From a virus: a stretch of DNA of 64,000 nucleotides. Shown here one piece after another: positions 7,376 to 40,449 of the stretch; within the stretch, counting starts at the first letter, position 1, and each line of letters opens with the position of its first letter. Position numbers and translations under genes: made by a program. The notes under the pieces are model-generated. The model had not been told where the DNA came from. It ran no database searches and worked only from the letters and a program-made list of their open reading frames with translations. The stretch is from IMG/VR virus record IMGVR_UViG_3300047445_000186, positions 1-64,000 of that record; one strand, written 5' to 3'.

Positions 7376-7543
7376 ATGAGCGATCCACGCGAACAACTGA
7401 AATCAATGCTTCAAGACCTGATCAATGATCGTCCAGAGCAAGCTTCTGCCACCATCCACGATTACATCGTGGCGAAGACGCAAGCCCTCGCAGGCTTTGC
7501 AGCTCCAGAAGCTGACGTTGATACTGAAGTCACCCCAGAGTGA
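7376..7543 (+). CDS. Small prohead core-like protein
   Basis: A 55-residue acidic protein (MSDPREQLKSMLQDLIND...) with one predicted amphipathic helix pair. Small proteins of the form LxDLINxxxxxA...VxxK occur just upstream of the scaffold in other T4-like phages and are called gp67-type core proteins. The ATG after GAAAGGTACC is preferred over an upstream in-frame ATG because the late promoter transcript would begin between them. A terminator follows. Confidence 0.55.
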   Translation: MSDPREQLKSMLQDLINDRPEQASATIHDYIVAKTQALAGFAAPEADVDTEVTPE

Positions 7544-24133: not shown

Positions 24134-25957
24134 ATGAGCTCTCTCCCTATCACCACATGTCCAGACGGCGCAGGTTCAGTGAACACGACCGGAAATGGAC
24201 TCGCCCCTGTACAGACGTACATCCAACCTGACATTTGCGTCGGTGAGTGGGAAATTCCGGCGTGCTCGGATTCGTATCAAGAGCAGCTCGCAGCAGAGAA
24301 CCTGAACATCAGTGGGGCGCCACTGAATGTGTTCAAGCTCCTGGGTGTGCACGAGCAAGGGAAGTTGATTGACCTTGTCGGTCTTGGGCAAGCGCTGAAC
24401 AGCTCGGCAGATGCGTTCGATCTGCTCGGAAACAATTGGCTGTCAGCAGAGACGGGCATGGCCGTGCTCACGACCCCTGCTTGGATGGGGTACGATTTTG
24501 GAACGACTAAGACGTCGTTCGGTCAGGACGTGAACGCAAAGGGCCAACCTGCCGCGCAGCACATCACATCGTTCCGAATTACGCAACCGACTGAGGGTCG
24601 CAGAGCACTTCAAGTGCGAATTGAACGATCGACGGGCGGGTACAAGGTTGACCCTCTGAAGATCCGCTTTACCGGATCTGGGAATGGTTCAGTGCAAGGT
24701 TACACTCCGGGCGTTCAGGCGGTTCCGGGCACCTTCATGCTTGCTGCAAGTAGCGCTACAAACTTCTCGGTTCTTTTCACCGGGGCCACCACGGAGGTGG
24801 TCGGTGTTTGCACGGTAGGAGTACGCTTCAATAGTCTGCACGGTTCTTTCACGATCATTCCTGGTTCGATTCCATTCGAGGCTGGCGACATGTTCTCCCT
24901 TCCGGTTGAACTTGATTGGTACCGAGTAGATGTCTTGAACTTGCCAGACGTCGCAGGTGCGGTCCTTGCCCGCATCAAGCAATCCTCAGCTTCCCGTTAC
25001 TGGCGAATCGTCCCTACTTCCTTCAGTGGAGTTCATGACGATCAACCTTGGGAGGTTGAGAAGTTGGAGCTGTTCGACTACCAGACAACTCGTCTGGATG
25101 ACGTTCAAGACCAACTGTACCTGGAGAATCGCGATCGGGACTATGCTAAGCAATCAGTCCAGTTCAAAGTTTCGTACCAGCCGTTCGACGCCATTTCTGA
25201 CCTGTCGAAGTTTGGTTTCCAAGTTTCTGACATGTACTCGTTCACAACTGTATTCTCTACCATGATCGCGGCTTTGGGCCGTCCGATCGTGGTTGGGGAC
25301 GTGCTTGAAGTACCGTCTGAGATGCAGTACGACCAGAACCTGAAACCAGTCCGGAAGTTCCTTGAAGTCACAGACACTTCGTGGGGCTCTGACGGGTACA
25401 CCACTTCGTGGCGCCCAATCACGTTCAAGTTCCAAGCGACTCAATTGATCCCGAGCCAGGAAACACGCGACATTCTCGGCACCGTTGATACCCAGAAGTA
25501 TGTGGTCGACGATGGTAACTTCTTCGCTGGCATCGAGCAGATCAGCACCGGTCCTCTGACATCCTCCGAAGCTGTGAAGGCCGAGGCTGAGCTGGCAGTT
25601 CCTGAGACTGGCGCGAATGTCCGTGAAGTCGCTTCCGGTATGAATCGCTTCAATCAACCTGGCAGCTACGACGGCACTGGTTTGTACGTTGAAGATGGTC
25701 TGCCGCCAGATGCGCAGCCATACACCGAAGGCTTCAAGCTTCCAGACGTCGCTGGAGTTCAGGATGGCGCGTTCTTCCGTTTGAACTACGACCCAAAACT
25801 AAATATCGCTGCACGCCTGTACAAGTTCAGCAACGTGAAGAACCAGTGGATGTACGTTGAGACCGATCGTCGGAACGAACGCTCTGCACTGAAGCCATCA
25901 CAGCGCGAAATGTTCAATCAGACGAAGACAATCTCTCTCACATCTAAGACCGTCTAA
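24134..25957 (+). CDS. gp14: Neck protein gp14-like, enlarged
   Basis: A 607-residue protein. Residues about 360-455 (VSDMYSFTTVFSTMIAALGR, then VGDVLEVPSEMQYDQNLKPV and KFLEVTDTSWGSDGYT) match the T4 gp14 neck family, including the SQETRDILG motif. T4 gp14 is only 256 residues; the extra mass is an N-terminal and central beta-rich region (about residues 100-330) and a C-terminal region. It acts with gp13 in the neck. Its stop overlaps the following gene start (ATGA). Confidence 0.75.
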   Translation: MSSLPITTCPDGAGSVNTTGNGLAPVQTYIQPDICVGEWEIPACSDSYQEQLAAENLNISGAPLNVFKLLGVHEQGKLIDLVGLGQALNSSADAFDLLGNNWLSAETGMAVLTTPAWMGYDFGTTKTSFGQDVNAKGQPAAQHITSFRITQPTEGRRALQVRIERSTGGYKVDPLKIRFTGSGNGSVQGYTPGVQAVPGTFMLAASSATNFSVLFTGATTEVVGVCTVGVRFNSLHGSFTIIPGSIPFEAGDMFSLPVELDWYRVDVLNLPDVAGAVLARIKQSSASRYWRIVPTSFSGVHDDQPWEVEKLELFDYQTTRLDDVQDQLYLENRDRDYAKQSVQFKVSYQPFDAISDLSKFGFQVSDMYSFTTVFSTMIAALGRPIVVGDVLEVPSEMQYDQNLKPVRKFLEVTDTSWGSDGYTTSWRPITFKFQATQLIPSQETRDILGTVDTQKYVVDDGNFFAGIEQISTGPLTSSEAVKAEAELAVPETGANVREVASGMNRFNQPGSYDGTGLYVEDGLPPDAQPYTEGFKLPDVAGVQDGAFFRLNYDPKLNIAARLYKFSNVKNQWMYVETDRRNERSALKPSQREMFNQTKTISLTSKTV

Positions 25958-26835
25958 TGAAGCTCCTCGATCTTTTTGAATCAGCGAAATACACCCTCGA
26001 GCAGGAGTTTATCATCCGCTCGTGGGGTCAGGTCTTGTACCTTGACTACTTCGATTTGCCTGCTGGCCGCAGCACTATTGGCACCTATGATTTGGCTGTT
26101 CTCGTTCGTGAGTACAACGAGGCAATCAAGTCTGGCGATGAAGACAAGATCACCGAGCTGGATGAGTGGATCGCTGAAGGCGCGCCATTGAAGAACGGTA
26201 AGCACGTGCTCACAAAGGAAACTGTTGACGTTCTGCTCACGCGAGCGCAACATAAAGCTGGCAAGGAGATCACGCTCTATCGGTTCGATGAACGAGACAA
26301 TCCATTGAAGCCAGATGCGTGGATCAGCATGACCACGAAAGATAACGGATACGCAGGCGCACGTCGTGAATACCATCTGAAGGCAGATGACCTGATCATT
26401 GACGCACATGGTCTTGCTGATGACCAGGAAGTGATCGTGAATACGAACGTGCTTCTTAAGTCTACAAACGAAGCGTACCAGCCAGAGTGGGAGAAGCCAT
26501 GCTGGATCGTCGCAATCAAGAACACCCTTGGCGTCTCTGAAGAGAAGATCAAGGAGCTTGCTCTGAAGCATGACTGGGACGGAAAGAGCGATGGTCTTGC
26601 TGTCAAGAACGTGATCATGATCGTGTGGGATTTGATCGGCCATATGCCTGATCTGTCGCTCACGAAGGACTCGAGAGGCATGACACCAAAGGAGTTCTCT
26701 GGCACTCAAGGCAAGACTGGTCTCGTGTTCACGAAGGCGCACGTGATGCCGATGATCAATGGCAAGGTATCAAATTTCAACGGGCACGGCGAAGAAGAAA
26801 TCGCGGCGGTCGCCACGTACAAAGGTAAGAAATGA
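25957..26835 (+). CDS. Putative packaged ADP-ribosyltransferase-like effector with CTS
   Basis: A 292-residue protein beginning MKLLDLFESAKY, a CTS-like start with a gp21-type site LFE|S after residue 8. Residues 105-160 look like an ADP-ribosyltransferase core: ITLYRF (R109), the strand WISMTT (S124) and DDQEVIV (D156-Q-E158), matching R-S-(E/D)xE though with Asp at the first acidic position. The C-terminal half is not recognised. It sits between neck gp14 and sheath-completion gp15 in a late region. Likely carried in the head and injected, as T4 Alt is; the atypical DxE leaves activity uncertain. Confidence 0.55.
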   Translation: MKLLDLFESAKYTLEQEFIIRSWGQVLYLDYFDLPAGRSTIGTYDLAVLVREYNEAIKSGDEDKITELDEWIAEGAPLKNGKHVLTKETVDVLLTRAQHKAGKEITLYRFDERDNPLKPDAWISMTTKDNGYAGARREYHLKADDLIIDAHGLADDQEVIVNTNVLLKSTNEAYQPEWEKPCWIVAIKNTLGVSEEKIKELALKHDWDGKSDGLAVKNVIMIVWDLIGHMPDLSLTKDSRGMTPKEFSGTQGKTGLVFTKAHVMPMINGKVSNFNGHGEEEIAAVATYKGKK

Positions 26836-27302
26836 TTCTGCAGGAGATCCTTGACAGCGTATATCCGTTCAAGCTGAAGAAGCATGCTGACGGTATGTCG
26901 GCGTCGTTCGTGAATGCGAACAAGAAGCGCGTCTCGGTCTCCTTGGTTGGGTACCACATTCCAGAAACTGGTTGGTCGTACGAGATCCAGTTCGCGATCA
27001 AGAACAGCACTGAGTTAACAGGTGATGGTGATCAGTTCAAAATCTTTGCGACTGTTTCTGCAATCGTGCAGGAGTTCTTGAAGGTCAAGAGCGATTGGCG
27101 AGCATCAGGAGTTCCTGTGCTACTGTTCTGCACGGCAGATTCAGGTGGCCGTCATGGACTGTACAGGAAGCTTGTTCAGCGAGTAATCGCTGGTACGAAA
27201 TTCAAAATCAAAGAACCAACCGCTCTGCCGAAGAACGTGCAAGAGTGGTGGTCGCAGCTGGAGTTCTCCGGCGACTCATACATTATGGCAACAACACTAT
27301 GA
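26832..27302 (+). CDS. Hypothetical protein with short CTS-like start
   Basis: A 156-residue protein starting MILQEILDSVYPF, which resembles the hydrophobic-E-hydrophobic start of the packaged proteins but lacks a clean L-x-E cleavage site. Mixed alpha/beta; no motif found. It is overlap-coupled to its neighbours on both sides, between an ART-like gene and gp15. Possibly another head protein or a partner of the ART-like gene upstream. Confidence 0.55.
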   Translation: MILQEILDSVYPFKLKKHADGMSASFVNANKKRVSVSLVGYHIPETGWSYEIQFAIKNSTELTGDGDQFKIFATVSAIVQEFLKVKSDWRASGVPVLLFCTADSGGRHGLYRKLVQRVIAGTKFKIKEPTALPKNVQEWWSQLEFSGDSYIMATTL

Positions 27303-28084
27303 TCAATAACTACTGGTTCGATAATCAACTGCGGAGCTACATCCTGCAGTTCGTCTCGATCTTCCAAGGTCTGCAAGTACAGACTGGTTCTGGCGAGTGC
27401 GATGAGGTTCAGCGAATCACCGTACCATGCGTGATCGGTAACAAGGACCGTGTCGTCGCAGCTCTGCACACTGGGAATACAGACAATCGCGTGTTCAGCC
27501 TGCCAACAATGTCCGTGCACATGCAAGGTCTGCAGCTCGCTCCTGAACGTCGGAAGGTTCAAGCATTCGTGGATCAGCGAGTGACCATGAAGGCTGGTGG
27601 CGTGTTCCCGCAAGACTTGACGACCGTTAAGCGCGCGATGCCAATCCCGTACAACATGACGATCGAACTGAGCATCTACGCGTCGAACACTCTGCAACGC
27701 GATCAGATCCTAGAGCAAATCCTCGTGCTGTTCAATCCGGATCTGCAGATCCAGAAGTCTGATGGTGCATTCGACTGGACACGTCTGACAAAGGTTGAAC
27801 TGACTGACATCGCGAACGAAGAGAACTATCCATCGGCGACTGATCGCCGCATGATCGTCTGGACTCTGTCGTTCGAGCTGCCGATCTTCCTGAGCGTTCC
27901 GATGGGCGTGAAGGATGACTTGGTCCGGAAGGTCATTATCCAGATTGGTTCGCTAGATACTCTAGTAGTGAATGAAGTTGACGAGAATGGAGAACTGACT
28001 CCGTTCGGCACTCCAATTGCTCGTATCGAGTACGACACCCGCGACCCTGTAGGTCCAATTCCTGACGGCCCAGTCCAAGTATGA
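27299..28084 (+). CDS. gp15: Tail sheath stabiliser / tail completion protein gp15
   Basis: A 261-residue protein matching T4 gp15 (272 residues): N-terminal NNYWFDNQLRSYILQF...F, then a central PIPYNMTIELSIYASN, QILEQILVLFNPD and DRRMIVWTLSFEL. gp15 caps the tail tube and sheath at the head-proximal end. The ATG overlapping the preceding stop is used instead of a long upstream extension that would overlap the preceding gene. Confidence 0.85.
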   Translation: MINNYWFDNQLRSYILQFVSIFQGLQVQTGSGECDEVQRITVPCVIGNKDRVVAALHTGNTDNRVFSLPTMSVHMQGLQLAPERRKVQAFVDQRVTMKAGGVFPQDLTTVKRAMPIPYNMTIELSIYASNTLQRDQILEQILVLFNPDLQIQKSDGAFDWTRLTKVELTDIANEENYPSATDRRMIVWTLSFELPIFLSVPMGVKDDLVRKVIIQIGSLDTLVVNEVDENGELTPFGTPIARIEYDTRDPVGPIPDGPVQV

Positions 28085-29667
28085 TTTCATTCAAGCAATT
28101 CCTCGCCGAAAAGGCAATGAACAAAGGCGCGTACGCTAAGGCTGCGGCCCGCGTAGGCGGAGACGCACGTATCGGTTTTGAGATCGAAGTCGTTGTTCCA
28201 GCAAAAACCGCAATGCACGTCGGTCCTTCTGAAACGAAGGACGATCCGTCGAACATCGAAGACATCCGTAAGTACGACTCTCTGAGCGAGTTCGAGGTCA
28301 CGTTCTATGTGACGCAGAATGATCGTGCAAAGATCAATCGTGACTTCGGAGACTGGGTGGCAGCCCAGGAAGATGACTGGGTTGAGGGGAACTGGCACTC
28401 ATTCGTTGATGACGACGAGCATGAAGACAATCCAGATCGCGCTGAGAAGAATGCGCGCCGTGAAGCCGCACGTGAGTACGACAAGTCTGACGACACCTTT
28501 GATGTCTGGGTTGATCGTGAATTCAGAACCTCAAAGTCATTCGTTGATTTCTACGATCTTGAGCCAAACTACGGCTGGCACAACGACTACACGGTGTACA
28601 CGTCTGATCCACAAGGCGAGTCCGAGATGTACATGAACGGCTGGGGTGAGACAGCAAAGTACATGGCACAGCAGCTCGAGCTGATCGTAAAGAACAAGGT
28701 CGTCGTGAACGGTTCCGGCTATTCAAGCTGGAACCTTACCCATGACACCTCGATCAAAGACGATCAAGGCACTGATTACGAATCAGGCATGAACGGGTAC
28801 GGTATTGAAATCGTCTCTCCTCCGCTGAAGTTCGAAACCGCGTTCACTCTCCTTGAAGCTGTTCTCCGTTGGGTAGATCGGAACGGCATGAACACGAATG
28901 AGACGACTGGCATTCACATGAACATGTCTCTGAACGACATGGCTGATTTCGATCCATTGAAGCTCGTGCTGTTCATGGGTGACAAGCACATCCTTGAGAA
29001 GTTCAATCGTCTTTCGAACACGTTCACTCGCTCGCAGATTCAGCTTGCTGCTGACGGCGTCGAGATGACTGGCACTCTGCCAAAGGGCGTGGCTGAGATT
29101 GAGAAGGCTGCTCGTGAATCGCTGAAGACTTCAGGTAAGTACTTCTCGGTTAATCTGAACCACATGCCGAAGTACCTCGAGTTCCGCGCTGCTGGCGGTC
29201 CAGGATACCACAAGCGAATCGCTGATCTGCACGAATTGATGGGCCGTTGGCTGACCGCCATGGAGATCGCAACCGATCCGGCACGTGAACGGAAAGAGTA
29301 CCTGAAAAAGATCGCGAAGCTCGCAGGGCTGACATCGATCGGTAAGGCGCAACAAGGCGATTCAGTCGAGAAGTCATTCAAGGACGCAGTTCTTGGTCCA
29401 CGCGGTCGTCGCTGGCTCTGGGACGGCGTCCAAAAGGCTCTTGAGTCTGGTGATGCAGCAAAGATCAAGACGGCTCTGAAGTCGCTCGTGATGGAGATCA
29501 TTTCCGATTACGAAGACGGATCGCCAAAGAAGCCGACCTTTAAACAGGTAAAAGAAGCCCGTGCAATGTTCAAGCAGGCCGGAGTGAAACTGAATGATTT
29601 GCAGGGAGACGACAAAGAACTGCGCGGCGCGTACGCAAAATTCAATCACATTTGGAGTGTCGACTGA
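28081..29667 (+). CDS. Putative packaged amidoligase-like enzyme with CTS
   Basis: A 528-residue protein. The N-terminus MISFKQFLAEKAM is a near match to the T4 internal-protein CTS (MKTYQEFIAEA), with cleavage expected after LAE (residue 10). The following region fits the phage/bacterial amidoligase family: GFEIEV (32-37), W217 with HDTS (221-224), GIEIVSPPL (241-249) and TGIHMNM (276-282); a Gly-rich FRAAGGPGYH follows near 370. Amidoligases join carboxylates and amines using ATP and are often linked to peptide or cell-wall modification. The usual second histidine of TGxHxH is Asn here. It lies between gp15 and the sheath. The substrate is unknown. Confidence 0.65.
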   Translation: MISFKQFLAEKAMNKGAYAKAAARVGGDARIGFEIEVVVPAKTAMHVGPSETKDDPSNIEDIRKYDSLSEFEVTFYVTQNDRAKINRDFGDWVAAQEDDWVEGNWHSFVDDDEHEDNPDRAEKNARREAAREYDKSDDTFDVWVDREFRTSKSFVDFYDLEPNYGWHNDYTVYTSDPQGESEMYMNGWGETAKYMAQQLELIVKNKVVVNGSGYSSWNLTHDTSIKDDQGTDYESGMNGYGIEIVSPPLKFETAFTLLEAVLRWVDRNGMNTNETTGIHMNMSLNDMADFDPLKLVLFMGDKHILEKFNRLSNTFTRSQIQLAADGVEMTGTLPKGVAEIEKAARESLKTSGKYFSVNLNHMPKYLEFRAAGGPGYHKRIADLHELMGRWLTAMEIATDPARERKEYLKKIAKLAGLTSIGKAQQGDSVEKSFKDAVLGPRGRRWLWDGVQKALESGDAAKIKTALKSLVMEIISDYEDGSPKKPTFKQVKEARAMFKQAGVKLNDLQGDDKELRGAYAKFNHIWSVD

Positions 29668-29705
29668 AAGTGCACTGGTTCTCGAAGCACTTTCCGGCAC
29701 GGTCC

Positions 29706-29711
29706 TAAATA
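29706..29711 (+). promoter_or_regulatory. Late promoter core TAAATA
   Basis: GGTCCTAAATACCTAG lies about 60 bases upstream of the sheath gene. Confidence 0.75.
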
Positions 29712-29730
29712 CCTAGAACCAAAACCCAGC

Positions 29731-29746
29731 AGTCAGAATTCTGACT
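29731..29746 (+). promoter_or_regulatory. 16-bp perfect palindrome in the sheath leader
   Basis: AGTCAGAATTCTGACT lies between the late start site (about 29717) and the sheath ATG. In RNA it gives a 6-bp stem with an AAUU loop, a possible 5-prime stabiliser. Confidence 0.5.
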
Positions 29747-29771
29747 CTTAACCCCTCGTAGGAGATCTAAC

Positions 29772-31613
29772 ATGCCATCCCTCGTTTCTCCAGGTGTATC
29801 CGTATCGGTCACCAACGAAGCGCTCTACTTCGCAGCTGCAGCACCGACTGTCCCGCTGTTCTTCATCGCCACCAAGGCCGGCAAGACCCAACCAAATGGC
29901 GTTACCCCAGCCGCCGGTACACTTGAATCTGGTGTTGTCCGCACTGTCACGTCGCTTCAGCAATCGCTCGAGCTGTACGGTGTGCCATCGTTCCGCAAGG
30001 ACTCGTCCGGCAATGAATTCCACGGCGATTCCCGCAATGAATACGGCCTGTTCGCTCTGAACCAAGCTCTCGGCGCTCTGTCGCGTGCTTATGTTGTCCG
30101 CGCTGACGTTGACCTCTCTGACGCTCCAGACACGTTCATCTCGTTCGGCACTCCAGTCGTTCTCGCAGGCTCGACCCTGTACAACGGTATCGGCAATGGC
30201 ACGATCGCAACGATCACCGCAACCGACAGCAAGGTGAAGCCACAAACGATCTCGATTCTGTTCACGTCCGCAACGACGTTCGCAGTATCCGGTTCGGTCT
30301 CCGGCTACATCGGTGCTGGTGTCGTTGGTACGCCTTTTGCTTCGTCGAAGGTGAACTTCACGATCACAGCAGGCGTTGTTCCATTCGTCGCTGGTGACGC
30401 ATACCTGTTCGATCTGGTTTACACCTCGGTCTTCACCGGCACCGGTAACGGCAAGCTGGTTTCCCTGGTTCCAGACACGCTCGCAGTTCCAGAAACTGTC
30501 ACGATCAAGTTCACTTCGCCAACGGCATTCACGGTCGTCGGTTCGGTCTCCGGCTCCGGTACTCCAGGCACTGTTGGTACTCCGTACGACAACATGCGCA
30601 TGCAGTTCACTGTGAACGCAGGCACGACTCCATTCGCAGTGGATGACCAGTTCGTTGTGACCGTCACGGAAGTTACTGTCGCTGCTCAACTCGGTTCGAA
30701 CGATGCTGCAAAGCGCGTCACGATCGTTACGGCTCTCCAAGCTGCAATCAACGGCAATCTGGATGTTCGCTCGGAACGCTACGAGTACAACATCATCGCT
30801 GCTCCTGGTTACCCAGAAGTTTCCGATGAACTGGCTGCTCTCGCATCCGACGTTCTGTACGAAGCAGTTGTTATCGCTGACACCCCAATGAACAAGACGC
30901 CTGACCAAGTCGCTCAATGGGCACTGACTTCGTCGCGTACTTCGAACGAAAGCGTCGCGTACTACTACCCATGGGGTCTCGCATCGAACCTCGACGGTCG
31001 TGATGTCCTGATCGCTCCATCGGGTATCGCTATCCGTACGATCGCTGTGTCTGATCAACAAGGTTACGTCTGGTCTGCAGCCGCAGGTGCTCAGCGTGGT
31101 GTTGTTACTGGTGTCTCGAAGGTTGGTTATGTTTCCGGCATGCTCGGTACCGCTACCACGTTCGTTGAAGCCAATCTGAACAACGGTCAGCGCGACAATC
31201 TGTACGAAGCACAGAAGAACATCAACCCAATCACGTTCTTCCCAGGTCGCGGTATCTTGGTTTGGGGTCAGAAGACTTCCGCTCCAGCAAACTCGGCAAT
31301 GGACCGCCTGAACGTTGTTCGTCTGGTTGCTTACCTCCGTCGTGTTCTCCGTAAGGGTGGCATGCCGTTCGTGTTCGAACCAAATGACCAGATCACTCGC
31401 GACAACTTGAAGGCAGCTGCCGATGGCATGCTGAACGACATCATGTCGAAGCGCGGTCTGTACGACTACGCAACGAAGTGCGATGCATCGAACAACACCG
31501 GCACTCGTATCGACAACAACGAGCTCTGGCTCGACGTTGGTATCAAGCCAGTGAAGACGGCGGAATTCTTGTACATTCCTATCCGTCTGGTTAGCACTGA
31601 CACTAGCTTCTAA
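29772..31613 (+). CDS. gp18: Tail sheath protein gp18
   Basis: A 613-residue contractile sheath subunit (T4 gp18 is 659). N-terminus PSLVSPGVSVSVTNEA is typical. A repeated beta domain (about residues 120-300) precedes the conserved YYPWGLASNLDGRDVLIAPS region, KNINPITFFPGRGILVWGQK and the C-terminal ELWLDVGIKPVKTAEF. It has its own late promoter and a strong GTAGGAGATC ribosome site, and is followed by a terminator and then the tube gene. Confidence 0.93.
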   Translation: MPSLVSPGVSVSVTNEALYFAAAAPTVPLFFIATKAGKTQPNGVTPAAGTLESGVVRTVTSLQQSLELYGVPSFRKDSSGNEFHGDSRNEYGLFALNQALGALSRAYVVRADVDLSDAPDTFISFGTPVVLAGSTLYNGIGNGTIATITATDSKVKPQTISILFTSATTFAVSGSVSGYIGAGVVGTPFASSKVNFTITAGVVPFVAGDAYLFDLVYTSVFTGTGNGKLVSLVPDTLAVPETVTIKFTSPTAFTVVGSVSGSGTPGTVGTPYDNMRMQFTVNAGTTPFAVDDQFVVTVTEVTVAAQLGSNDAAKRVTIVTALQAAINGNLDVRSERYEYNIIAAPGYPEVSDELAALASDVLYEAVVIADTPMNKTPDQVAQWALTSSRTSNESVAYYYPWGLASNLDGRDVLIAPSGIAIRTIAVSDQQGYVWSAAAGAQRGVVTGVSKVGYVSGMLGTATTFVEANLNNGQRDNLYEAQKNINPITFFPGRGILVWGQKTSAPANSAMDRLNVVRLVAYLRRVLRKGGMPFVFEPNDQITRDNLKAAADGMLNDIMSKRGLYDYATKCDASNNTGTRIDNNELWLDVGIKPVKTAEFLYIPIRLVSTDTSF

Positions 31614-31630
31614 TCCAAGCTAACTGTACA

Positions 31631-31657
31631 AAGGGTCCGGCTTTGCTGGGCCCTTTT
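31631..31657 (+). terminator. Rho-independent terminator after gp18
   Basis: AAGGGTCC-GGCTTTGCT-GGGCCCTT with one G.U pair, then TTCC. Confidence 0.8.
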
Positions 31658-31688
31658 CCATTTCTGCTATCGGAAATGGCTTACGCAC

Positions 31689-31710
31689 TAAATAAGGCTG
31701 TAAAGCTTAT
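31689..31710 (+). promoter_or_regulatory. Late promoter overlapping a GUAA-tetraloop hairpin
   Basis: TAAATA (31689-31694) overlaps the left arm of ATAAG(G)CT-GTAA-AGCTTAT (31692-31710). The late start site falls in the loop, so the hairpin forms only in read-through RNA. The tube ATG follows at 31728. Confidence 0.65.
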
Positions 31711-31727
31711 CTCAACTGGAGTCAATT

Positions 31728-32321
31728 ATGGCAACACTTTCGAATTTCGGTATCCCAGGCGCTGGCTCTGGCGTGCTGCATCCGAAGCTCAAGAACAAGT
31801 GGCGCATCACGTTCCAAGACATTGGCCGTTTGGTTGCTGGGCATAACAGCCGCAATCTGACGATGCAGTCTACCACCGTGTCGCGCCCTCAAGTAGAATT
31901 TGAAGAAGTCGCAATCCATCGCTACAACTCGACGGCATACGTCGCTGGGAAGCACACATGGTCGCCAATGAGCCTGACGCTCGAAGACGACATCGGTGGT
32001 CTCGCTTCGAAGGTCGTGAAGGCACAACTTGAAACGCAACAGCGTCTCGTTGGTGTGGATCTCGACGGTCGTTGGTTGAACACCGCTGCTACCGGTTCCG
32101 ACTACAAGTTCGGCGTTAAGCTCGAACAACTGGATGGTGACGAAGGCGTTGTTGAAACGTGGATTCTGGAAGGCGTGTTCATTCAGTCCGCAGAATTCGG
32201 CGATCTGGATTACTCCGCTTCGGAAGCTGCTACGATTCAGCTCTCCCTGCGCTTTGACCACGCTCGCTCGGTCGATAGCGGTGAAGGTTACGGTACGGCT
32301 CTGGGCGGTAACGTCGCTTAA
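31728..32321 (+). CDS. gp19: Tail tube protein gp19
   Basis: A 197-residue inner tube subunit (T4 gp19 is 163). N-terminal MATLSNFGIPGAGSG, then KLKNKWRITF, an internal STTVSRPQVEFEEV loop, DDIGGLASKVV and LEGVFIQSAEFGDLDY match the T4-like tube fold. It follows the sheath as in T4 and ends at a terminator. Confidence 0.9.
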   Translation: MATLSNFGIPGAGSGVLHPKLKNKWRITFQDIGRLVAGHNSRNLTMQSTTVSRPQVEFEEVAIHRYNSTAYVAGKHTWSPMSLTLEDDIGGLASKVVKAQLETQQRLVGVDLDGRWLNTAATGSDYKFGVKLEQLDGDEGVVETWILEGVFIQSAEFGDLDYSASEAATIQLSLRFDHARSVDSGEGYGTALGGNVA

Positions 32322-32572
32322 TTAGTCGCGCTGTCTGACAGATTTAGAGGACCTTTCGAGGTCCTCTTTTGTTTTGCCTTCGAGCATGCATTTCGCTCTG
32401 CCTCCTCCCAGGTTTCACCATATCCCCAGGCGCAGGTCCCGTCTTTGAGCTCCACGTACACGCCACACGTTTGGTGATGGTGGTGATTTTGCAGCATCGC
32501 GGCAGGCAAGAACGCACGCTGATGGACCTCGTGATCTACATCACCGCCGAATAGGTAGCTCAATAGTGTCAT
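32318..32572 (-). CDS. Possible minus-strand small protein
   Basis: An 84-residue frame on the minus strand covers the otherwise empty stretch between the tube gene and the next late promoter. Its centre, CGVYVELKDGTCAWGYGETWEEAERNA, looks protein-like (a short strand pair then GxTxEEAxxNA, as in HicB-type domains). There is a possible -35/-10 on the minus strand upstream (TTTACA, 17 bases, TACAGG), but the ribosome site is weak and the frame runs through the gp19 terminator. Real but uncertain. Confidence 0.4.
   Translation of the reverse strand: MTLLSYLFGGDVDHEVHQRAFLPAAMLQNHHHHQTCGVYVELKDGTCAWGYGETWEEAERNACSKAKQKRTSKGPLNLSDSATN
32346..32376 (+). terminator. Rho-independent terminator after gp19
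   Basis: AGAGGACC-TTTCGA-GGTCCTCT is followed by TTTGTTTTG. Confidence 0.9.
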
Positions 32573-32651
32573 GAACCGATTTTAACCCGAACCCCTGTAT
32601 CGGACTTGTTATCAGTTGTAAAACCGGTACAGACTGCTTGGCACTGTTCGC

Positions 32652-32657
32652 TAAATA
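32652..32657 (+). promoter_or_regulatory. Late promoter core TAAATA
   Basis: TTCGCTAAATACATG lies 32 bases upstream of the AAA+ gene. The leader contains a small CACT-AAAA-AGTG hairpin and no strong ribosome site. Confidence 0.7.
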
Positions 32658-32688
32658 CATGACATCATAATTCACTAAAAAGTGTCAC

Positions 32689-34242
32689 ATGCTTTCCTTC
32701 ATTGATTTCCTGGCAGAAGCCCAGTTCAGCGACGACGATTTTGCTCGCGTTCTGAGCGTCTTCGAACGCCGTCTCCCAAAGCTCCTTGGCGCTAAGCTGT
32801 ACCGTTACGGTGGTAAAAACCACGTTGAAAAGGTCGGCTCCGCTTCCCGGATCGTGTACATTTTCAATGACCGCGCATTCGGTGTTCGCTTCAAGGGCGG
32901 TCACGTTATTGGCATCGACGTCTGGTCCTCGTTCAAGGGTGGTCCAAGCCACTTCATCGACGTGCACACGCTCGCCGCTTCTTCCCTGATTGCTTCGATC
33001 AGCAAGCTCGCTGCTCTGATCAAGAATCCAAAGGAAGGTACGCACGAAGTGAACGCGGTGAATGAATCCGTTCAGCTCGATGAGATGGCACGTCGCGTTG
33101 ACGACAGCGCTTTCTACAAGTTCATGGTCGCTGCGTACGGTGAAGACGGTGCACAGAAGGTTACTTGGGCTCAGATCAAGACTGTCGCTGACGACAATGA
33201 CGTTCTGATTCCACGCTACATCCGTGACCAGAAGATTGGCCGCGGTCTCTGGACCTCGAAGCCAGGTGCTGGTGGTTCTTCCGAAGGTGGTGACGCCGCT
33301 GCTCCAGAAGCTGCTCCAAAGGCCGCTAAGAAGGAACCAATCCTGTACATCAAGGTCACGGCTCAGGACCCTGACACGAAGCGCTTCATCCCTGCTGGTG
33401 AAGTGAAGCAAGCCCAAGCTCTGTACAAGCAGATCGCTTCTGGCATGGCTGATCACAAGCCTTCCGAAAAGGAAATGCGCGATCCAGACACTCTGTACGG
33501 TCACTTGTCGCAACTCGTCGACATGACTTGTAAGGGTACGCTCCGCTCGCTGCTGATCTACGGTGGTCCAGGTACCGGTAAGACGTACACGATTATGCAG
33601 ACGATCAAGCAAGCTGGCATGACGTCTGGTAAAGAGTACATCAAGATGTCGGGTAAGGCATCTCCACTGTCGATCTACCAAACACTGTTCATGTTCCGCG
33701 AAGGCGGTCTCGTTGTGTTCGACGACTTGGACTCGATGTGGGGTAATGAAGACGCAACGAACATCTTGAAGGGTGCTCTCGATACGTCACCAGTCCGCGA
33801 AATCACATGGGGTTCTTCGAGCACTGTGAACGTTTCGAAGATGGACAAGGAAGAGCGCGAGCAATTCAATCGTCAAGTGGACGACAAGCTCGAAACGAAC
33901 CCAGAGAAGGTCAAGCTGCCTAATCAGTTCGAATTCAAGGGCCGCGTTGTGTTCATCTCGAACCTGAAGAAGGACGAGTTCGACACCGCGATCATGTCGC
34001 GTTCCGCAAAGATCTGTATGGACCTGACTCCAGAGGAAATTCTGAAGCGCATGCGTTCCGTTCTGCCAGGTCTCGGTGGTGACGACGTTCCACTGAAGGA
34101 TAAGGAAGCTCTGCTTGATCACCTGATCAAGATGCACGGTAATGGCGAACTCGATGCTGTCACAATGCGTGAGTTCGTTAAGGGTCTGAACATCTTCCGC
34201 TCGGGTGCTCCGAACTGGAAGGACCTGATCCAGTATTCCTAA
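32689..34242 (+). CDS. Putative packaged AAA+ ATPase with CTS
   Basis: A 517-residue protein starting MLSFIDFLAEAQF, an almost exact CTS match with expected gp21 cleavage LAE|A after residue 10. A second L-D-E|M site occurs at 130-132. Two N-terminal domains (about 12-125 and 135-215) are followed by an Ala/Pro/Lys linker and an AAA+ module: Walker A GGPGTGKT (292-299), Walker B VVFDDLD (342-348), a sensor-like N425 in VFISN and a C-terminal lid. An ATPase delivered inside the capsid would be unusual; it may remodel a host complex at infection. It could instead act in the prohead. It has its own late promoter and terminator. Confidence 0.75.
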   Translation: MLSFIDFLAEAQFSDDDFARVLSVFERRLPKLLGAKLYRYGGKNHVEKVGSASRIVYIFNDRAFGVRFKGGHVIGIDVWSSFKGGPSHFIDVHTLAASSLIASISKLAALIKNPKEGTHEVNAVNESVQLDEMARRVDDSAFYKFMVAAYGEDGAQKVTWAQIKTVADDNDVLIPRYIRDQKIGRGLWTSKPGAGGSSEGGDAAAPEAAPKAAKKEPILYIKVTAQDPDTKRFIPAGEVKQAQALYKQIASGMADHKPSEKEMRDPDTLYGHLSQLVDMTCKGTLRSLLIYGGPGTGKTYTIMQTIKQAGMTSGKEYIKMSGKASPLSIYQTLFMFREGGLVVFDDLDSMWGNEDATNILKGALDTSPVREITWGSSSTVNVSKMDKEEREQFNRQVDDKLETNPEKVKLPNQFEFKGRVVFISNLKKDEFDTAIMSRSAKICMDLTPEEILKRMRSVLPGLGGDDVPLKDKEALLDHLIKMHGNGELDAVTMREFVKGLNIFRSGAPNWKDLIQYS

Positions 34243-34262
34243 TCCTTGATTTAAGGATTATG

Positions 34263-34294
34263 ATAGCCGATCCTTTATGGGTCGGCTATTTTTG
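34263..34294 (+). terminator. Rho-independent terminator
   Basis: ATAGCCGA-TCCTTTATGGG-TCGGCTAT is followed by TTTTG. Confidence 0.85.
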
Positions 34295-34312
34295 CATCTG
34301 CTCGCTCCGCTC

Positions 34313-34318
34313 TAAATA
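34313..34318 (+). promoter_or_regulatory. Late promoter core TAAATA
   Basis: GCTCTAAATAAGCG lies 25 bases upstream of the next CTS-bearing gene; the short leader holds the palindrome TCCGATCGGA. Confidence 0.7.
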
Positions 34319-34342
34319 AGCGTACATCCGATCGGAATCACC

Positions 34343-35371
34343 ATGAAACTCATCCAAGAAATTCAAACCATTGTTGAAGCCAAGGGCGTCAAAGACTCGC
34401 TCTCTGATACTCAACTGAAGTATGTTCTCCGTGGCGCAGCCACTGGTAGCCGTATCGAAGCTGATGGAAAGATCGTTTGGCCAGGCACTGCGTCGACAAT
34501 CTTCAATTCACGTGAAGCTAAAGAAAAGTATGCTCGTAAGGGTGATGCATTTGCCGAGAAGATGAAGACCGGCAAGTTCAACAAGGTCGTGATCAAGGAT
34601 TACCAAGCACGTGGCGCCGGCGGTCAATGGCTGACTGCTGAAACGTACGAACTGACGATCAACGAATCGTTCACGCTTGGCTCGAAGCAACACGCTGAAC
34701 TCGCAGCAGCTGCAAAGGGTCTGGACAAGATGACCGTTCGTCGCTTCAAGACGATCGTCAAGTACTCGACCATGAGCCAGCACGATTGCACTGAAATCAC
34801 CGACATGTTGAACACTGTCGACGCTGACAAGGTTCTGACGCGTCATGACATCGAGCAAATTGCAGCTTCAACGAACACTGATCTTGGCGAACTGCTTGAT
34901 CTTTCGAATCTGAATGAGGCGGAAGAGAAGAAGACAGCAAACCCAGAATTTGCCAAGGGTCTCGAAGCAGGTATGAAGGCGCTCAAGAAGCTTCGTCCCC
35001 AAGGCAAGATCATCCCAGGTTTCGTTCATAACATCGGCAGTGCGAGCCACGAACGTCATGATGCATCGTTCGAGTACGATTTCGAATATGACGGCAAAAC
35101 ATACGAAGCTGCGATCCGTGTAGATTACTCGAAGTCTGGTGGCGTCAGCCGCCCACCACAGTACCACTACTCGTACTACAGCTTCAAGGACAAGAACGAA
35201 AAGAACGCTCGTATGTTCAACCCACAAGCTGACTCCGGCCCGTTCATCACGGATCTGAGCGAGCTCGGCAAGGAACTGAACTCCTGGGAAAAGCACATTG
35301 CTGATGGCTTGATCGCTCAGAAGAAGCGTTGGGAAGCTGATCTCGAAAAGATGCGTCCAAAGAAGAAGTAA
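34343..35371 (+). CDS. Putative packaged internal protein with CTS, unknown function
   Basis: A 342-residue protein starting MKLIQEIQTIVEAKG, a CTS-like start with cleavage site IVE|A after residue 12. A second possible site, LNE|A, occurs near residue 193 between a helical N-terminal half and a C-terminal half with YEFDFEYDGKTYEAAI-like strands. No catalytic motif was recognised. It is the first gene of a late operon extending through gp54/gp48-like, the small ART-like pair, gp4 and the large ART gene. Confidence 0.65.
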   Translation: MKLIQEIQTIVEAKGVKDSLSDTQLKYVLRGAATGSRIEADGKIVWPGTASTIFNSREAKEKYARKGDAFAEKMKTGKFNKVVIKDYQARGAGGQWLTAETYELTINESFTLGSKQHAELAAAAKGLDKMTVRRFKTIVKYSTMSQHDCTEITDMLNTVDADKVLTRHDIEQIAASTNTDLGELLDLSNLNEAEEKKTANPEFAKGLEAGMKALKKLRPQGKIIPGFVHNIGSASHERHDASFEYDFEYDGKTYEAAIRVDYSKSGGVSRPPQYHYSYYSFKDKNEKNARMFNPQADSGPFITDLSELGKELNSWEKHIADGLIAQKKRWEADLEKMRPKKK

Positions 35372-36661
35372 ATGGCCGATATTTCGCAACTCCTGAGATC
35401 CTCAGGCATTGACGCTCAGCGCACTGCGACTGATCTGTTCGGTGCCGCTGTTGAGGACTTCGCGGCAAAGCCACTGAACGGCTTGCTGAACTCCGTCACT
35501 GGACGGAACGGCACGGCGGCTCAGGGGCGAAATGATCCAGGTACATGGTACGCAACATCGTACGCTGCCTCTTTGGCGAACTCGCAGTACCGTCCGAAGT
35601 TGAAGTTCATGTTCCGCGTGGAGTTCTTGTTCGAGCCAAAGGTGCTCGAGACATTCGGCCGCGCCGAATGGCAAAAGAACTTCACCTTCCTCGTGAAGAC
35701 TGTAGATCGTCCAAAGGTCGACTTCGAGTACGAGGACGTGAATCAGTACAACTTTAGAACGAAGGTCTTGAAGCAGATCAAGCACCGTGAACTGACGCTC
35801 TCATTCACTGACGACGTCGGCAATCACGTGTACGAGTTCTTCCGTTTCATGATGATGGTTCACTCACCAATTACCCGTCGCTCTGCTTACGCATCAAGTG
35901 ACATCTCGGCTGCGTACGCAACGTACACCGCTGGTTCGGGCATGGAGTTCACGAAGGGTCTCGGTCCTATCAATGACTTCGCGCACCGTGGTGCTGTTGA
36001 CACCGATCTTGGCAATGCGATCCGCGCAATCAAGATCACTCAGATCTTCATCAACCCTTCCGATACGCCGCCAAATGCAGCGAAGGAAGTGTCGTTCTTC
36101 TTCATCAATCCACGCGTAACCTCGTTCGACTTGGATGATGTGTCGCATGAAGCATCTGATCCGAATCTGTTCACGATGCAGTTCGATTATGACTTCATGG
36201 TCATGAGCAAGCAAGAACTCTTGAAGCCACTGAGCGCTGACAAGTCTCTCCCACCAGTTGGCACTGCTCCAGGTGAAGCTGCTCCTACACCAGGTTCTGG
36301 CACTAGCACTGGGTACGGTTCTGGCGCAATGGATCCGTACATTGGAATGCTCGCTGGTATTGGTGGCCGTGCTGTACAGAAGATCACCTCAGATACCGTT
36401 GGCAAAGCTCTGCGAACCATTCCTGGTCTCGGTTCTGTCGCTGACAACATCGGTGGTATCACGCAAGGTATTGCGCGTGACCAGCTTGCAGGGATCGGTC
36501 AAACTGTGAACCAAGCGTTCGCTCGACCAGGTCGCGACATCGTGACTGATTTGTCGACTGCTGGCCGTGATGCAGCGTCGTACATCACTTCTATTGGTTC
36601 AGGTGGATTCGGCTCAGGCCAACCATCCGTGAACGTAACTGATCTTGGCGGATATCTCTAA
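35372..36661 (+). CDS. Baseplate tube initiator/cap protein (gp54/gp48-like)
   Basis: A 429-residue protein. Residues about 70-290 have the tail-tube-related fold of T4 gp54 and gp48: KFMFRVEFLF, FTFLVKTVDRPKVDFEYE, then LTLSFTDDVGNHVYEFFR and TMQFDYDFMVM. The C-terminal about 130 residues are glycine-rich, which suggests extension into the tube, as in gp48. In T4 these two proteins sit on the hub and start tube polymerisation. I cannot choose between gp54 and gp48 by eye. Confidence 0.65.
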   Translation: MADISQLLRSSGIDAQRTATDLFGAAVEDFAAKPLNGLLNSVTGRNGTAAQGRNDPGTWYATSYAASLANSQYRPKLKFMFRVEFLFEPKVLETFGRAEWQKNFTFLVKTVDRPKVDFEYEDVNQYNFRTKVLKQIKHRELTLSFTDDVGNHVYEFFRFMMMVHSPITRRSAYASSDISAAYATYTAGSGMEFTKGLGPINDFAHRGAVDTDLGNAIRAIKITQIFINPSDTPPNAAKEVSFFFINPRVTSFDLDDVSHEASDPNLFTMQFDYDFMVMSKQELLKPLSADKSLPPVGTAPGEAAPTPGSGTSTGYGSGAMDPYIGMLAGIGGRAVQKITSDTVGKALRTIPGLGSVADNIGGITQGIARDQLAGIGQTVNQAFARPGRDIVTDLSTAGRDAASYITSIGSGGFGSGQPSVNVTDLGGYL

Positions 36662-37146
36662 TGCTTCTCACTGAACTCCTGGCCTATCATGGCACTGGTA
36701 AGAAACCAACAACGAAGCTGAAGCCGCCTATCTTCGTGACAACTCAACGTGAAGGCGCTGAGTGGTATGCTGCTGAGCGCGGGAACGGCGAGAATGGTGT
36801 TATCCTCGTTGGCGATCTTCAAGTGAAGAAGCCGTTCGATCTGCGTAGGTTCGATGGGTACGAGAAATACCTAGAGTTGGCTAAGTCTGCGGGGATCGAG
36901 TTCGAGGGCATGGATGTCCATAACGAGCAGTTCTTCTGCAAGGAAATTCAAGATCACTCGCCATACGATGGCACGAACTCCTCTGACCTCGTGTACATTC
37001 CGAAGTTTCAAGCGGCACTGAAGGCCGCTGGATATGATTCATTGCACATGAGTGACGTGCTCACGAATGATGAGATCGACACGTACGTGATCTTTGATCC
37101 ATCACTGTTCAAGATTAAGCGCGCTGAGAAGCATCTGTACTACTAA
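36661..37146 (+). CDS. Small ART-PolyVal-like protein, copy 1
   Basis: A 161-residue protein beginning MLLTELLAYHGTGKK. Features fit small phage ADP-ribosyltransferases of the PolyVal/Tse2-like kind: YHGT (9-12), IFVTT then AEWYA (33-37), VKKPFDL, KAAGYDSLHM (121-130), and the C-terminal EIDTYVIFDPSLFKIK. The MLLTEL start may be a short CTS. It shares the layout and many residues with the next gene (tandem duplication). Proposed role: injected toxin-like modifier; the target is unknown. Confidence 0.55.
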   Translation: MLLTELLAYHGTGKKPTTKLKPPIFVTTQREGAEWYAAERGNGENGVILVGDLQVKKPFDLRRFDGYEKYLELAKSAGIEFEGMDVHNEQFFCKEIQDHSPYDGTNSSDLVYIPKFQAALKAAGYDSLHMSDVLTNDEIDTYVIFDPSLFKIKRAEKHLYY

Positions 37147-37153
37147 GAACGCA

Positions 37154-37642
37154 ATGCTTCTCTCTGAAATCACCGTCTATCACGGCTCTGAAGCTGCTCC
37201 TAAGGGGAAGTTCAAGATGCCTCTGTTCTTGACACCAAACAAGAATGGTGCTTCGTGGTATGCTCGCGAGCATGCTGGCGCCGGCAGAACTGGTGTCCTC
37301 GTGACTGGTGAGCTGAACGTGAAGAAGCCGCTTGAGGCTTATGGATACGGTCTGTGGAAGAAGATGCTTGACGTCGCTCAGTACGCAGGCATTCGTTTCA
37401 AGAACGATCCGTACTTCCAGTGCGATGAGATCAGCGACGCTGGACACTCTGGTTCGAACATCGGTGATCTCGTCTATCTTCCGAAGTTCCAGCAAGAGCT
37501 GAAGAGACAGGGATACGACTCAGTGCACATGAGTGACGAGCTAGTCGGTAGCTCGATCGAAGTGTACGTGATCTTCAAACCATCACAATTCAAAATCACC
37601 AGCATCGGCGATCCAATTTCGACCGATGACGCTTGGAAATAA
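37154..37642 (+). CDS. Small ART-PolyVal-like protein, copy 2
   Basis: A 162-residue paralogue of the preceding gene: MLLSEITVYHGS, PLFLT, ASWYA, VKKPLE, RQGYDSVHMSDEL and EVYVIFKPSQFKI in the same order. The start is the ATG 7 bases after the previous stop; a longer in-frame version would overlap the neighbour. The copies have diverged to roughly 40 percent identity by eye, so the duplication is old and both are probably functional. The N-terminus again has the M-L-L-x-E pattern. Confidence 0.55.
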   Translation: MLLSEITVYHGSEAAPKGKFKMPLFLTPNKNGASWYAREHAGAGRTGVLVTGELNVKKPLEAYGYGLWKKMLDVAQYAGIRFKNDPYFQCDEISDAGHSGSNIGDLVYLPKFQQELKRQGYDSVHMSDELVGSSIEVYVIFKPSQFKITSIGDPISTDDAWK

Positions 37643-37643
37643 T

Positions 37644-38087
37644 ATGGCAGCATCACGTGGCACAATGAAGGGTCGGTTCATTCCGAAGAACCCACAGAAA
37701 TACCTTGGGAACTCCGATCGAATCATCGGTCGCTCGAGCTGGGAATTCCGCCTGTTCCAATGGTGTGACAGCACTCCAGCAGTTCTGCAATGGGCTAGTG
37801 AAGAGTTCTCCGTTCCGTACCTGTCGCCAATTGACAACAAGGTTCATCAGTACTACCCTGACGCGCTCGTTGTTTACCGTGACAAGTTCGGGAACATCAA
37901 GAAAGAAATCGTTGAAGTGAAGCCGTACAAAGAGACGGTCAGAACTCCAAAGTCAACTGAACGGGATCTGATCGCTCTTGCAATCAATGAAGCTAAGTGG
38001 AAAGCCGCTGTGCGTTTCGCTGAGCAGCAAGGCATGACGTTCCGAATCATCACTGAAAAGACAATGTTCAAGCAGGCTGGCAAATGA
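37644..38087 (+). CDS. gp4: Head completion protein gp4
   Basis: A 147-residue protein matching T4 gp4 (150 residues), which finishes the filled head before tail joining. It has a TnsA/PD-(D/E)XK-like nuclease fold: E34 (SSWEFRLFQWCD), D73 in YYPDALVVY, and E91-V-K93 in VEVKPYKE. The second ATG (after GAAATAAT) is preferred because it removes overlap with the preceding gene. It is overlap-coupled to the large ART gene. Confidence 0.85.
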   Translation: MAASRGTMKGRFIPKNPQKYLGNSDRIIGRSSWEFRLFQWCDSTPAVLQWASEEFSVPYLSPIDNKVHQYYPDALVVYRDKFGNIKKEIVEVKPYKETVRTPKSTERDLIALAINEAKWKAAVRFAEQQGMTFRIITEKTMFKQAGK

Positions 38088-39241
38088 AACAGACCTTTAA
38101 ACAATTCAACGAATCGACTGAGCTGAACACCATTCATGTCCGCCCACTGAAGTCGGTCGAGCTTCATCGTGCAAAGGAAGCCGTTCAAGCCGCCTTGCTC
38201 GGTCACCAGCTCGCAAAAGAAAAGAAGCCAACACTCGATCAGATCAAGGCTGTTCATGATCAGCTCGCGAAGTTCAAGCTCCCGTTCGTGCAGGCGATCG
38301 TGAAGGAGCTTGATGAGGTGTTCGAGAAGTACCGCGCAATGATGAACGCTGGCACAAAGCTGTTCAGCCACGGCGCCGCAGTCGGCTCGTTGAACAAGGC
38401 GATGAAGGCCGCGTTCCTGTCAGGCGACAAGGCGAAGTTCAAGGAACTGAAGGCTCAGGCAGACTCCAAGATTGCAGACCTGGACCACCACGTGGACGCC
38501 GAGGCCACCGCGCATCGCAAGGTGAAGAACTCCTTTACGGCTGAAGCAAGCATCTTCGGCACCACCCGGCTCCTGTCAACGGTCGGGGATCATGAGTACG
38601 ACAAGCTGAAGGCTCTGGACTTCAGCCAGCCGCTGTACACAGGCCTCGATTTCCCGACGAAGCAAGCACATGACTTCCATTACGTCCTGTACTTCCTGAC
38701 GAATCTCACTAACTCTCCGAAGCCGATCCGGATGACGAGCGCGAATGAGTTCAGAACGCACACTCGTGTGAAGTACGCGAATGATGGTAAGCTCGAGAAG
38801 CTCTTGAAGATCACGGATGATTACCTGCACTCGAACGACAAGACACTGATCCCGCAGATCATGGCGCTTGTGAACGACATTCCTTCGATCAAGTCAGCGA
38901 ACGACTCAGCCAAGAAGAAGATCAAGACGGTTTATCGAGGGATCGGGATTGGTGAAGATGATGAGGGAGATCCGTCTCGCGATCAGATTATCGCCCAAGA
39001 CCGCGAGAGTAAATACGTTGCAACGTCTGATTCACGGCACGCCGCAAAGAACTTCGCATTGCAGAAGGGTCACTTAGAAGACAGTGAAGAGCGCCGTTCC
39101 GCTCTCGGATACATCATCGAGTACCGAGTAACTCCAGATGCGATCCTGTTCGACACGAAGGTGATCGACACCGTGTACAACGAGTCAGAAATTTTGATTG
39201 ACGCCACGAAGGCGGAAGTCGTAGAAATCAAGGAAGTATAA
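38084..39241 (+). CDS. Putative packaged Arg-type mono-ADP-ribosyltransferase with CTS
   Basis: A 385-residue protein starting MKQTFKQFNESTEL, with a CTS-like FKQF core and an F-N-E|S site after residue 10. A helical region (about 20-160) precedes a C-terminal ART domain with the full R-S-E set: TVYRG (R285), YVATSDS (STS-like, 311-317) with a following AAKNFA helix, and the ExE pair E367-S-E369 in YNESEILID. This is the arrangement of arginine-specific toxins and of T4 Alt/ModA/ModB. T4 Alt is packaged, injected and modifies host RNA polymerase; the same mode of delivery is inferred here, the target is not known. Confidence 0.75.
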   Translation: MKQTFKQFNESTELNTIHVRPLKSVELHRAKEAVQAALLGHQLAKEKKPTLDQIKAVHDQLAKFKLPFVQAIVKELDEVFEKYRAMMNAGTKLFSHGAAVGSLNKAMKAAFLSGDKAKFKELKAQADSKIADLDHHVDAEATAHRKVKNSFTAEASIFGTTRLLSTVGDHEYDKLKALDFSQPLYTGLDFPTKQAHDFHYVLYFLTNLTNSPKPIRMTSANEFRTHTRVKYANDGKLEKLLKITDDYLHSNDKTLIPQIMALVNDIPSIKSANDSAKKKIKTVYRGIGIGEDDEGDPSRDQIIAQDRESKYVATSDSRHAAKNFALQKGHLEDSEERRSALGYIIEYRVTPDAILFDTKVIDTVYNESEILIDATKAEVVEIKEV

Positions 39242-40217: not shown

Positions 40218-40220
40218 ATA
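40215..40220 (+). promoter_or_regulatory. Late promoter core TAAATA
   Basis: GCTCTAAATACAGC overlaps the gp16 stop and lies 23 bases upstream of the next gene. Confidence 0.7.
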
Positions 40221-40242
40221 CAGCTGCACAACAGAGATTATC

Positions 40243-40449
40243 ATGCGTAAACTGATTGAAGACAAAGAAACGATTTCCGTTCCTACACTGAAGCCACGTG
40301 ATCCTAATCAGCAAATTCTTGCGAACAAGAAGAATGCTGGCGGTCCTATGCGTGACAAGAAGAAGGAAATGAAGCGCGGCAAGGAAAAGTTCAAGGGCTC
40401 TTTCAAGCAGTTCATGGAAGCGCTTGACGCAGCTGAGCAGGCTGAATAA
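40243..40449 (+). CDS. Small basic protein with C-terminal CTS-like motif
   Basis: A 68-residue protein. The middle is strongly basic (KKNAGGPMRDKKKEMKRGK, residues 30-48), as in small phage head-associated proteins. The last 16 residues, SFKQFMEALDAAEQAE, closely resemble the CTS of the packaged proteins (compare SFKQFLAEKA) but lie at the C-terminus. It could bind DNA or act in head assembly. Function inferred only. Confidence 0.6.
   Translation: MRKLIEDKETISVPTLKPRDPNQQILANKKNAGGPMRDKKKEMKRGKEKFKGSFKQFMEALDAAEQAE

Follow-up and report, generated by a model that had tools for sequence, protein, structure and literature searches.

A probable large expansion of the T4-type capsid-targeting-sequence system in a distant RaK2-like jumbo phage

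Why should a phage place much the same few residues at the start of many proteins whose bodies are unrelated? The question is raised by the first 64 kb (64,000 nucleotides, hereafter the window) of the IMG/VR virus record IMGVR_UViG_3300047445_000186, which comprises 331,776 bases in full. An earlier note on this stretch had singled out six open reading frames, starting at 25957, 28081, 32689, 34343, 38084 and 6489, and proposed that a shared N-terminal tag brings their products into the prohead, where gp21 would trim them ahead of injection; the starts and N-terminal residues that it gave are accurate. Its major capsid protein shares 51% identity with that of Stenotrophomonas phage RAS14, 46% with that of Xanthomonas phage XacN1 and 40% with that of Escherichia phage 121Q, which places the virus among the RaK2-like, T4-type jumbo myoviruses as a distant member. 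We argue that it very probably carries a greatly expanded T4-type capsid-targeting-sequence (CTS) system, with about 28-35 proteins marked. The tag itself is real and maintained at the protein level, it sits on unrelated bodies between which it is exchanged, it is tied to late-type promoter motifs, and it occurs in phages that bear the prohead protease. We found no description of a tag system in RaK2-like phages in the open-access literature.

Is the recurrence of such N-termini more than chance? The tag was described by the pattern M[KRNI]-hydrophobic-x(0-3)-(E[LIF], LxE or FxE), and stretches following internal methionines served as the internal control. In the whole genome of the record (G000, 521-523 called genes) the pattern is found in 24 of 469 N-termini against 11 of 1827 internal-methionine stretches (p=7e-10). 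Four related contigs of 311-350 kb, retrieved via the AAA+ and sheath genes, gave p=4e-9 (G001), 1e-24 (G002), 2e-11 (G004) and 1e-10 (G005) under the same control; G004 and G005 were fetched after the main patterns had been fixed, short sheath loci of both having been seen earlier. A stricter null, in which N-termini were permuted by column so that position-specific composition was kept, was applied to the union of three patterns. It yields 6.8±2.5 tagged proteins for the genome of the record, where 35 are observed (z=11), and therefore about 28 of the 35 are expected to be real; for the related contigs z=10.4, 15.2, 10.5 and 9.0. Among the comparison phages scored in this way (XacN1, Atu_ph07, 121Q, CBB, phiKZ and T4), enrichment is seen in XacN1 (z=4.4) and Atu_ph07 (z=5.8), and none in 121Q, CBB or phiKZ. 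Some genuine tags escape the patterns, and a position matrix trained on T4 proved too narrow to decide membership. Both the statistics and the comparison, G004 and G005 included, thus bear out the idea of a shared tag on otherwise unrelated proteins. All six genes originally named belong to the set, which had nevertheless been drawn too small: it lacked 26832, 36661, 37154 and 61784 (a GTG start), together with some 20-25 genes outside the window.

The tag behaves as an exchangeable module. In the genome of the record it takes two forms, MxxFKQFLxE and MK[LIV]xxL[LF]E, with a length of about 5-12 residues. Across the five genomes the broad pattern marks 222 of 2245 proteins, distributed over 156 body families, about a tenth to a fifth of these matches being expected by chance; alignment of 77 tagged bodies from other phages recovers nothing but MKLxxLxE, in which M1 and E9 hardly vary. 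The earlier note had counted on conservation of the tag in homologues, and the tag is indeed kept: in pairs formed with homologues in two relatives, the homologue is tagged in 15 of 32 cases for tagged genes of the record, as opposed to 6 of 383 for untagged ones. The letters of the tag are often wholly different between homologues, and similarity of the bodies begins at the predicted cut, as in the pairs MIMKLLQEVSNLNES/LPSPNNVDG and MITFKQFLFES/SPSPGNVDG, or MFSLLKQILTE/GGKATEKLG and MITFKQFLLE/GGKATAALG (here and below a slash marks the predicted cut). Ten families combine both tag types, and one of them does so within one genome, that of G004. The tags use leucine codons of mixed kinds, which argues for selection on protein rather than DNA, and the variability of codons rules out conservation at the DNA level in the form of a mobile promoter or start region. 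Around the sheath gene of many related contigs, the slots between conserved tail genes and head-completion genes hold differing tagged proteins; in G004, for instance, these include several genes of the MITFKQFL type, and in G002 four of the MKL type. Individual phages also have dialects of their own, MKLxxLLE in G002 and M[KR]W-x-[QD]L-x-E in Atu_ph07. The G002 contig additionally contains arrays of small, acidic-looking MKLxxLLE-tagged proteins with unknown bodies (11444-13658, 86359-88248 and 335055-337865).

What could such a module be for? In T4, IPIII needs no more than its first ten residues to be packaged, targeting involving residues 4 and 7, and processing residues 8 and 10; gp21 cuts after L/I-x-E, and Alt is injected (PMC9026906). 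T-even internal proteins have the leader alone in common (PMC3012670), and Ip1-Ip3, once injected, inhibit GmrSD restriction enzymes (PMC12373910). Read from the T4 genome, the leader of IPII and IPIII is MKTYQEFIAEA, that of IPI is MKTFKEFTST and that of Alt is MELITELFDE, so that the start ascribed in the earlier note to the T4 internal proteins applies to two of them and not to IPI. As with these four T4 proteins, a short N-terminal leader here stands on unrelated bodies, and both leader types recur: MISFKQFLAE, MLSFIDFLAE and MKQTFKQF are IP-like, while MLITELF, MKLFEL and MLLTEL are Alt-like. The likeness extends to the L/I-x-E ahead of the body, the gp21-type protease, the gp22-like scaffold and the presence of an ART among the cargo. 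Unlike in T4, where four cases are clear, there are about 30 candidates per phage, known here from genes alone; their cargo adds an amidoligase, an AAA+ ATPase, a kinase, RNA ligases and Acb1, and their tags swap type between homologues and form phage-specific dialects.

The machinery that such a leader would require is encoded in the head module, all on the plus strand. The gp21-type prohead protease (S77; 5877..6485; PF03420 E=1.2e-26, phrog_207 E=5e-56), whose own product starts MQLLKEYL, is the presumed tag cutter, and a protease of this type is found in every complete-length genome that bears the tag. It is followed by a tagged protein of 277 residues with an unassigned body, MKLLQEMLGLLE/A (6489..7322), in a slot between gp21 and gp22 that other tagged proteins fill in other phages. 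The tagged genes had been described as interleaved with tail and head genes; this one lies in the head module beside gp21 and not among tail genes. Next come a small protein conserved in five relatives (7376..7543), by its position possibly a core protein like T4 gp67/68, and the gp22-like core scaffold (7693..8577), which precedes gp23, has a 121Q homologue annotated as gp22-like and is the presumed docking partner of the tag. The major capsid protein gp23 (8603..9856) has homologues with an L-x-E-type site ahead of the conserved body.

The remaining tagged genes of the window, likewise on the plus strand, encode a varied cargo. At 25957..26835, MKLLDLFE/S precedes a body with ART-like motifs discernible by eye (LYR..., ISMTT, DQEVIV), for which only one near-identical contig and one partial match were found as relatives. 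The overlapping gene at 26832..27302 (MILQE/ILDS) has a DUF6934-like body, a family that is tagged recurrently. An amidoligase (Amidoligase_2, PF12224 E=5e-10) follows MISFKQFLAE/K at 28081..29667, its relatives being tagged MITFKQFLAEKA, MITFKEYLLE and MKLDVLFE. MLSFIDFLAE/A (32689..34242) is carried by an AAA+ ATPase with an extra N-terminal domain (PF00004 E=2.7e-5, phrog_1250 E=1e-32), whose relatives bear MFTFKDYLVEA and MKINFASYLVEA. An untagged AAA+ paralogue of this protein lies at 262616-263623 of the record and is present in all five genomes; the tagged gene looks like a duplicate of it that gained the tag and the extra domain. The body behind MKLIQEIQTIVE/A (34343..35371) is unassigned, and no relatives were found beyond the near-identical contig. 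Two ART-PolyVal-like proteins resembling each other, MLLTE/LLAYHGTGKKPT (36661..37146; PF18760 E=6e-4) and MLLSE/ITVYHG (37154..37642; E=3.5e-5), match below the curated cut-off, and the G004 relative of the former starts MKLEQLFEAKKLKAFHGTGKLPT. The last, MKQTFKQFNE/S (38084..39241), aligns as an ART by motif: the R-S-E motifs YRG, VATSxS and YNExE are invariant across four relatives, whose tags read MKQTFKQFNE/S, MFKQTFKLFLE/S, MITFKEFLFE/S and MKVSDIFLLAE/S, with the E and S invariant. The structure model of this protein is poor in the ART part (pLDDT mostly <50), and no PDB profile matched it. Of the cargo originally proposed, the amidoligase and the AAA+ ATPase are therefore supported by family matches, and the ART assignment by motif in 38084 and by matches below the cut-off in 36661 and 37154. 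The cargo is more varied than that of T4, as had been claimed, and its repertoire proves to be genome-wide and exchangeable as well. No MuF or portal domain was detected in the tagged proteins scanned, and structure-sequence searches returned no matches.

Further cargo candidates lie beyond this cluster. Acb1, an anti-CBASS nuclease (61784..62209, plus strand; PF23474 E=5.5e-31), begins with a GTG codon (MKLFELKTRGTGTYVA) and has the probable tag MKLFE/LK. It is encoded in all five genomes and has a tag-like start in four of them (MKLFELK, MLLNELK, MLLKEIL and MKLYELK), a hint that Acb1 may be packaged. The Acb1 of T4 (73952-74410 and 73591-73878) starts MMEFKDFSTG and adjoins IPI; it may itself be packaged. 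Elsewhere in the record we observe a tagged phosphoribosyltransferase (165222, E=7e-8), a tagged relative of the gp0.7-like kinase by which T7 inhibits host transcription (166097, phrog_15752 E=3e-7) and many tagged bodies without a recognised function; phrog_832, the T4 Alt type, has no match in this genome. Tagged cargo of the relatives includes Acb1, a zeta-toxin/polynucleotide-kinase-like protein, an RNA ligase, a 2H phosphoesterase and an Alt-type ART. Judged by their sequences, the tagged bodies would suit early takeover or counter-defence.

When would these proteins be made? A motif derived from the upstream regions of structural genes, [CG]TAAATA, is a putative late promoter core that stands ahead of structural and tagged genes throughout the genome, often at a distance of about 25-40 bases (as for 15193, 22220, 31728, 32689 and 34343); in the two tagged cases TAAATA occupies 32652..32657 and 34313..34318 on the plus strand, 37 and 30 bases before the respective genes. 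Within 150 bases upstream, [CG]TAAATA is present for 12 of 31 tagged and 46 of 438 untagged genes of the record (p=9e-5), and ahead of the tagged genes it is never found on the wrong strand. The enrichment is weaker or absent in individual relatives, and TAAATA pooled over the five genomes gives p=3.5e-5; the T4 promoter TATAAAT shows no enrichment upstream of tagged genes. The resemblance of TAAATA to the core of the T4 late promoter suggests that tagged genes are expressed late.

Virion proteomes of other phages provide a further view. Atu_ph07 is an isolated phage with a virion proteome determined by mass spectrometry; according to its published description (PMC6102473), 29 virion proteins, mostly of unknown function, come from CDS 31-76. 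Tags are found in 13 of 45 genes inside that interval and in 11 of 526 outside it (p=1e-9). The genes at 39,484-50,592 correspond to gp53-gp63, the numbering being anchored on gp2, gp4-gp5 and gp70; gp53-gp62 bear the Atu_ph07 dialect, a third tag form, and gp63 starts MRLFQLLE. These proteins have bodies akin to one another and to a tagged ART-like family of G004; judged by eye, the bodies look like ARTs themselves (YRG, late Glu). The tagged genes are supported by their position within a cluster rich in detected proteins, which is not proof of their own detection. In CBB (KU574722), nine virion proteins detected by mass spectrometry (CBB_144, 247, 536, 537, 548, 549, 551, 552 and 553) share another N-terminal motif, MLPF...YGN or YAN, on different bodies (Kelch, Laminin_G and others), a modular virion tag of another kind, which may serve tail whiskers or decoration. 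A protein of the record starting MLPFTLDDHVQFGYEGG (150984-151916, minus strand), with TAAATA upstream, resembles this motif.

Several known systems share aspects of this arrangement. The T-even internal protein hotspots (Silas et al. 2025, PMC12373910) likewise combine rapid cargo turnover with a constant leader, but their cargo, encoded at two loci, consists of small proteins that inhibit a single restriction family, as opposed to large enzymes genome-wide. In phiKZ and SPN3US, a gp21-like protease processes many head proteins, which are probably injected (PMC5694885); several propeptides there exceed 100 residues, unlike the predicted tags of 5-12 residues, and phiKZ yielded neither a short tag nor a PF03420 match. 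An N-terminal segment of DarB of phage P1 suffices to bring a reporter into the head, but more than 9 residues are needed and the Dar proteins have no common consensus (PMC9024508). Head-packaged ARTs, MuF fusions and polyvalent proteins include ARTs encoded beside head genes and predicted to be packaged (PMC9503650); the argument for packaging in their case is gene context or MuF/portal fusion, whereas the probable route here is a short cleavable leader.

We hypothesize the following course of events. Tagged proteins would be synthesized late in infection; as inferred from T4, the tag would dock on the gp22-like core scaffold of the growing prohead, so that the proteins become enclosed. The gp21-type protease would then cut after L/I-x-E and thereby release the body and detach it from the core, and after DNA packaging the bodies would be delivered with the DNA, modifying host proteins and disarming host defences. 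By analogy with T4, packaging is highly likely, cutting of the tag only a little less so, and injection is reasonably probable; injection and the functions of the individual cargo proteins are the least certain parts of this scheme. It stands as the best reading of the data, given the T4-like leaders, the homology of bodies from the predicted cut onwards and the gp21-type protease.

A number of observations weigh against this scheme. The motif is short, and about 7 of the 35 matches in the record are expected by chance. T4 itself stays below significance in the column-permuted statistic although its known leaders fit the patterns, because it has only a handful of tagged genes. Some predicted cut sites deviate: the L/I-x-E motif invoked in the earlier note is present in general but not in 38084, where F stands three residues before the cut (F-N-E). 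In CBB, whose virion proteins are listed from mass spectrometry, tags are not enriched and the majority of virion proteins carry none, the scarcity of tags depriving this check of power; in XacN1, the virion chitinase and lipase are untagged. The genes at 49328 (HD/AAA_33) and 56330 match the pattern and are probably not tagged, since in their homologues either conservation runs unbroken across the region or the motif is missing. Two other candidates were treated with caution: 41454, a paralogue of the adjacent terminase-like gene, was set aside, and the tag of the ClpP-like 257140 is doubtful.

Another possibility is that the tag attaches proteins to some other part of the virion, such as the tail tube, baseplate or portal, and that the cargo genes belong to the tail. 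Many tagged genes do lie between the sheath, tube and tail-completion genes, and the CBB motif indicates that phages use tags elsewhere in the virion. We nonetheless consider this unlikely, since the tags match T4 leaders proven for head packaging and end in a prohead-protease site, occur also in the slot beside gp21 and gp22 and far from tail genes, and the tagged bodies that can be recognised are enzymes rather than tail folds. Could the proteins instead be packaged as structural, volume-filling components of the core, and not as effectors to be injected? T4 core proteins bear such leaders too, and jumbo capsids need large cores; but the bodies that can be recognised belong to diverse enzymes whose catalytic motifs are conserved (ART, kinase, amidoligase, Acb1); they differ between phages within a given slot and resemble the injected Alt of T4 (PMC9026906), so that a purely structural role also appears improbable. 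That the short, amphipathic tag is a membrane-binding helix or another cytoplasmic signal, for clustering or degradation, without relation to the capsid, is very doubtful, as neither the fixed Glu, the body border at a protease site, the likeness to T4 leaders nor the late-type motifs would be expected of a membrane helix. Chance combined with compositional bias, suggested by the frequency of Lys as the second and of hydrophobic residues as the third residue at phage N-termini, has next to no prospect against the excess of observed tags over the composition-keeping null (35 against 6.8±2.5) and the similar result in four relatives.

The reading of the tag as a capsid-targeting sequence has consequences for the T4-type jumbo clade as a whole. 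On balance we favour the view that these phages rely on head-borne delivery by a swappable, cleaved tag, whose dialects co-evolve with the scaffold, and that each head may carry at least about 30 enzymes serving takeover and counter-defence (ARTs, Acb1) before phage expression begins. If so, the differing dialects offer a route to mapping the interface between tag and scaffold, and the tags could become a means of bringing proteins into very large phage heads. One would then be able to tell from the N-terminus alone which of the hundreds of jumbo-phage proteins without known function enter the head and reach the host at time zero; many unknown genes would thereby become candidates, open to testing, for injected effectors and anti-defence proteins, and the idea of T4 internal proteins, so far confined to a few, would widen to a modular system spanning the genome.

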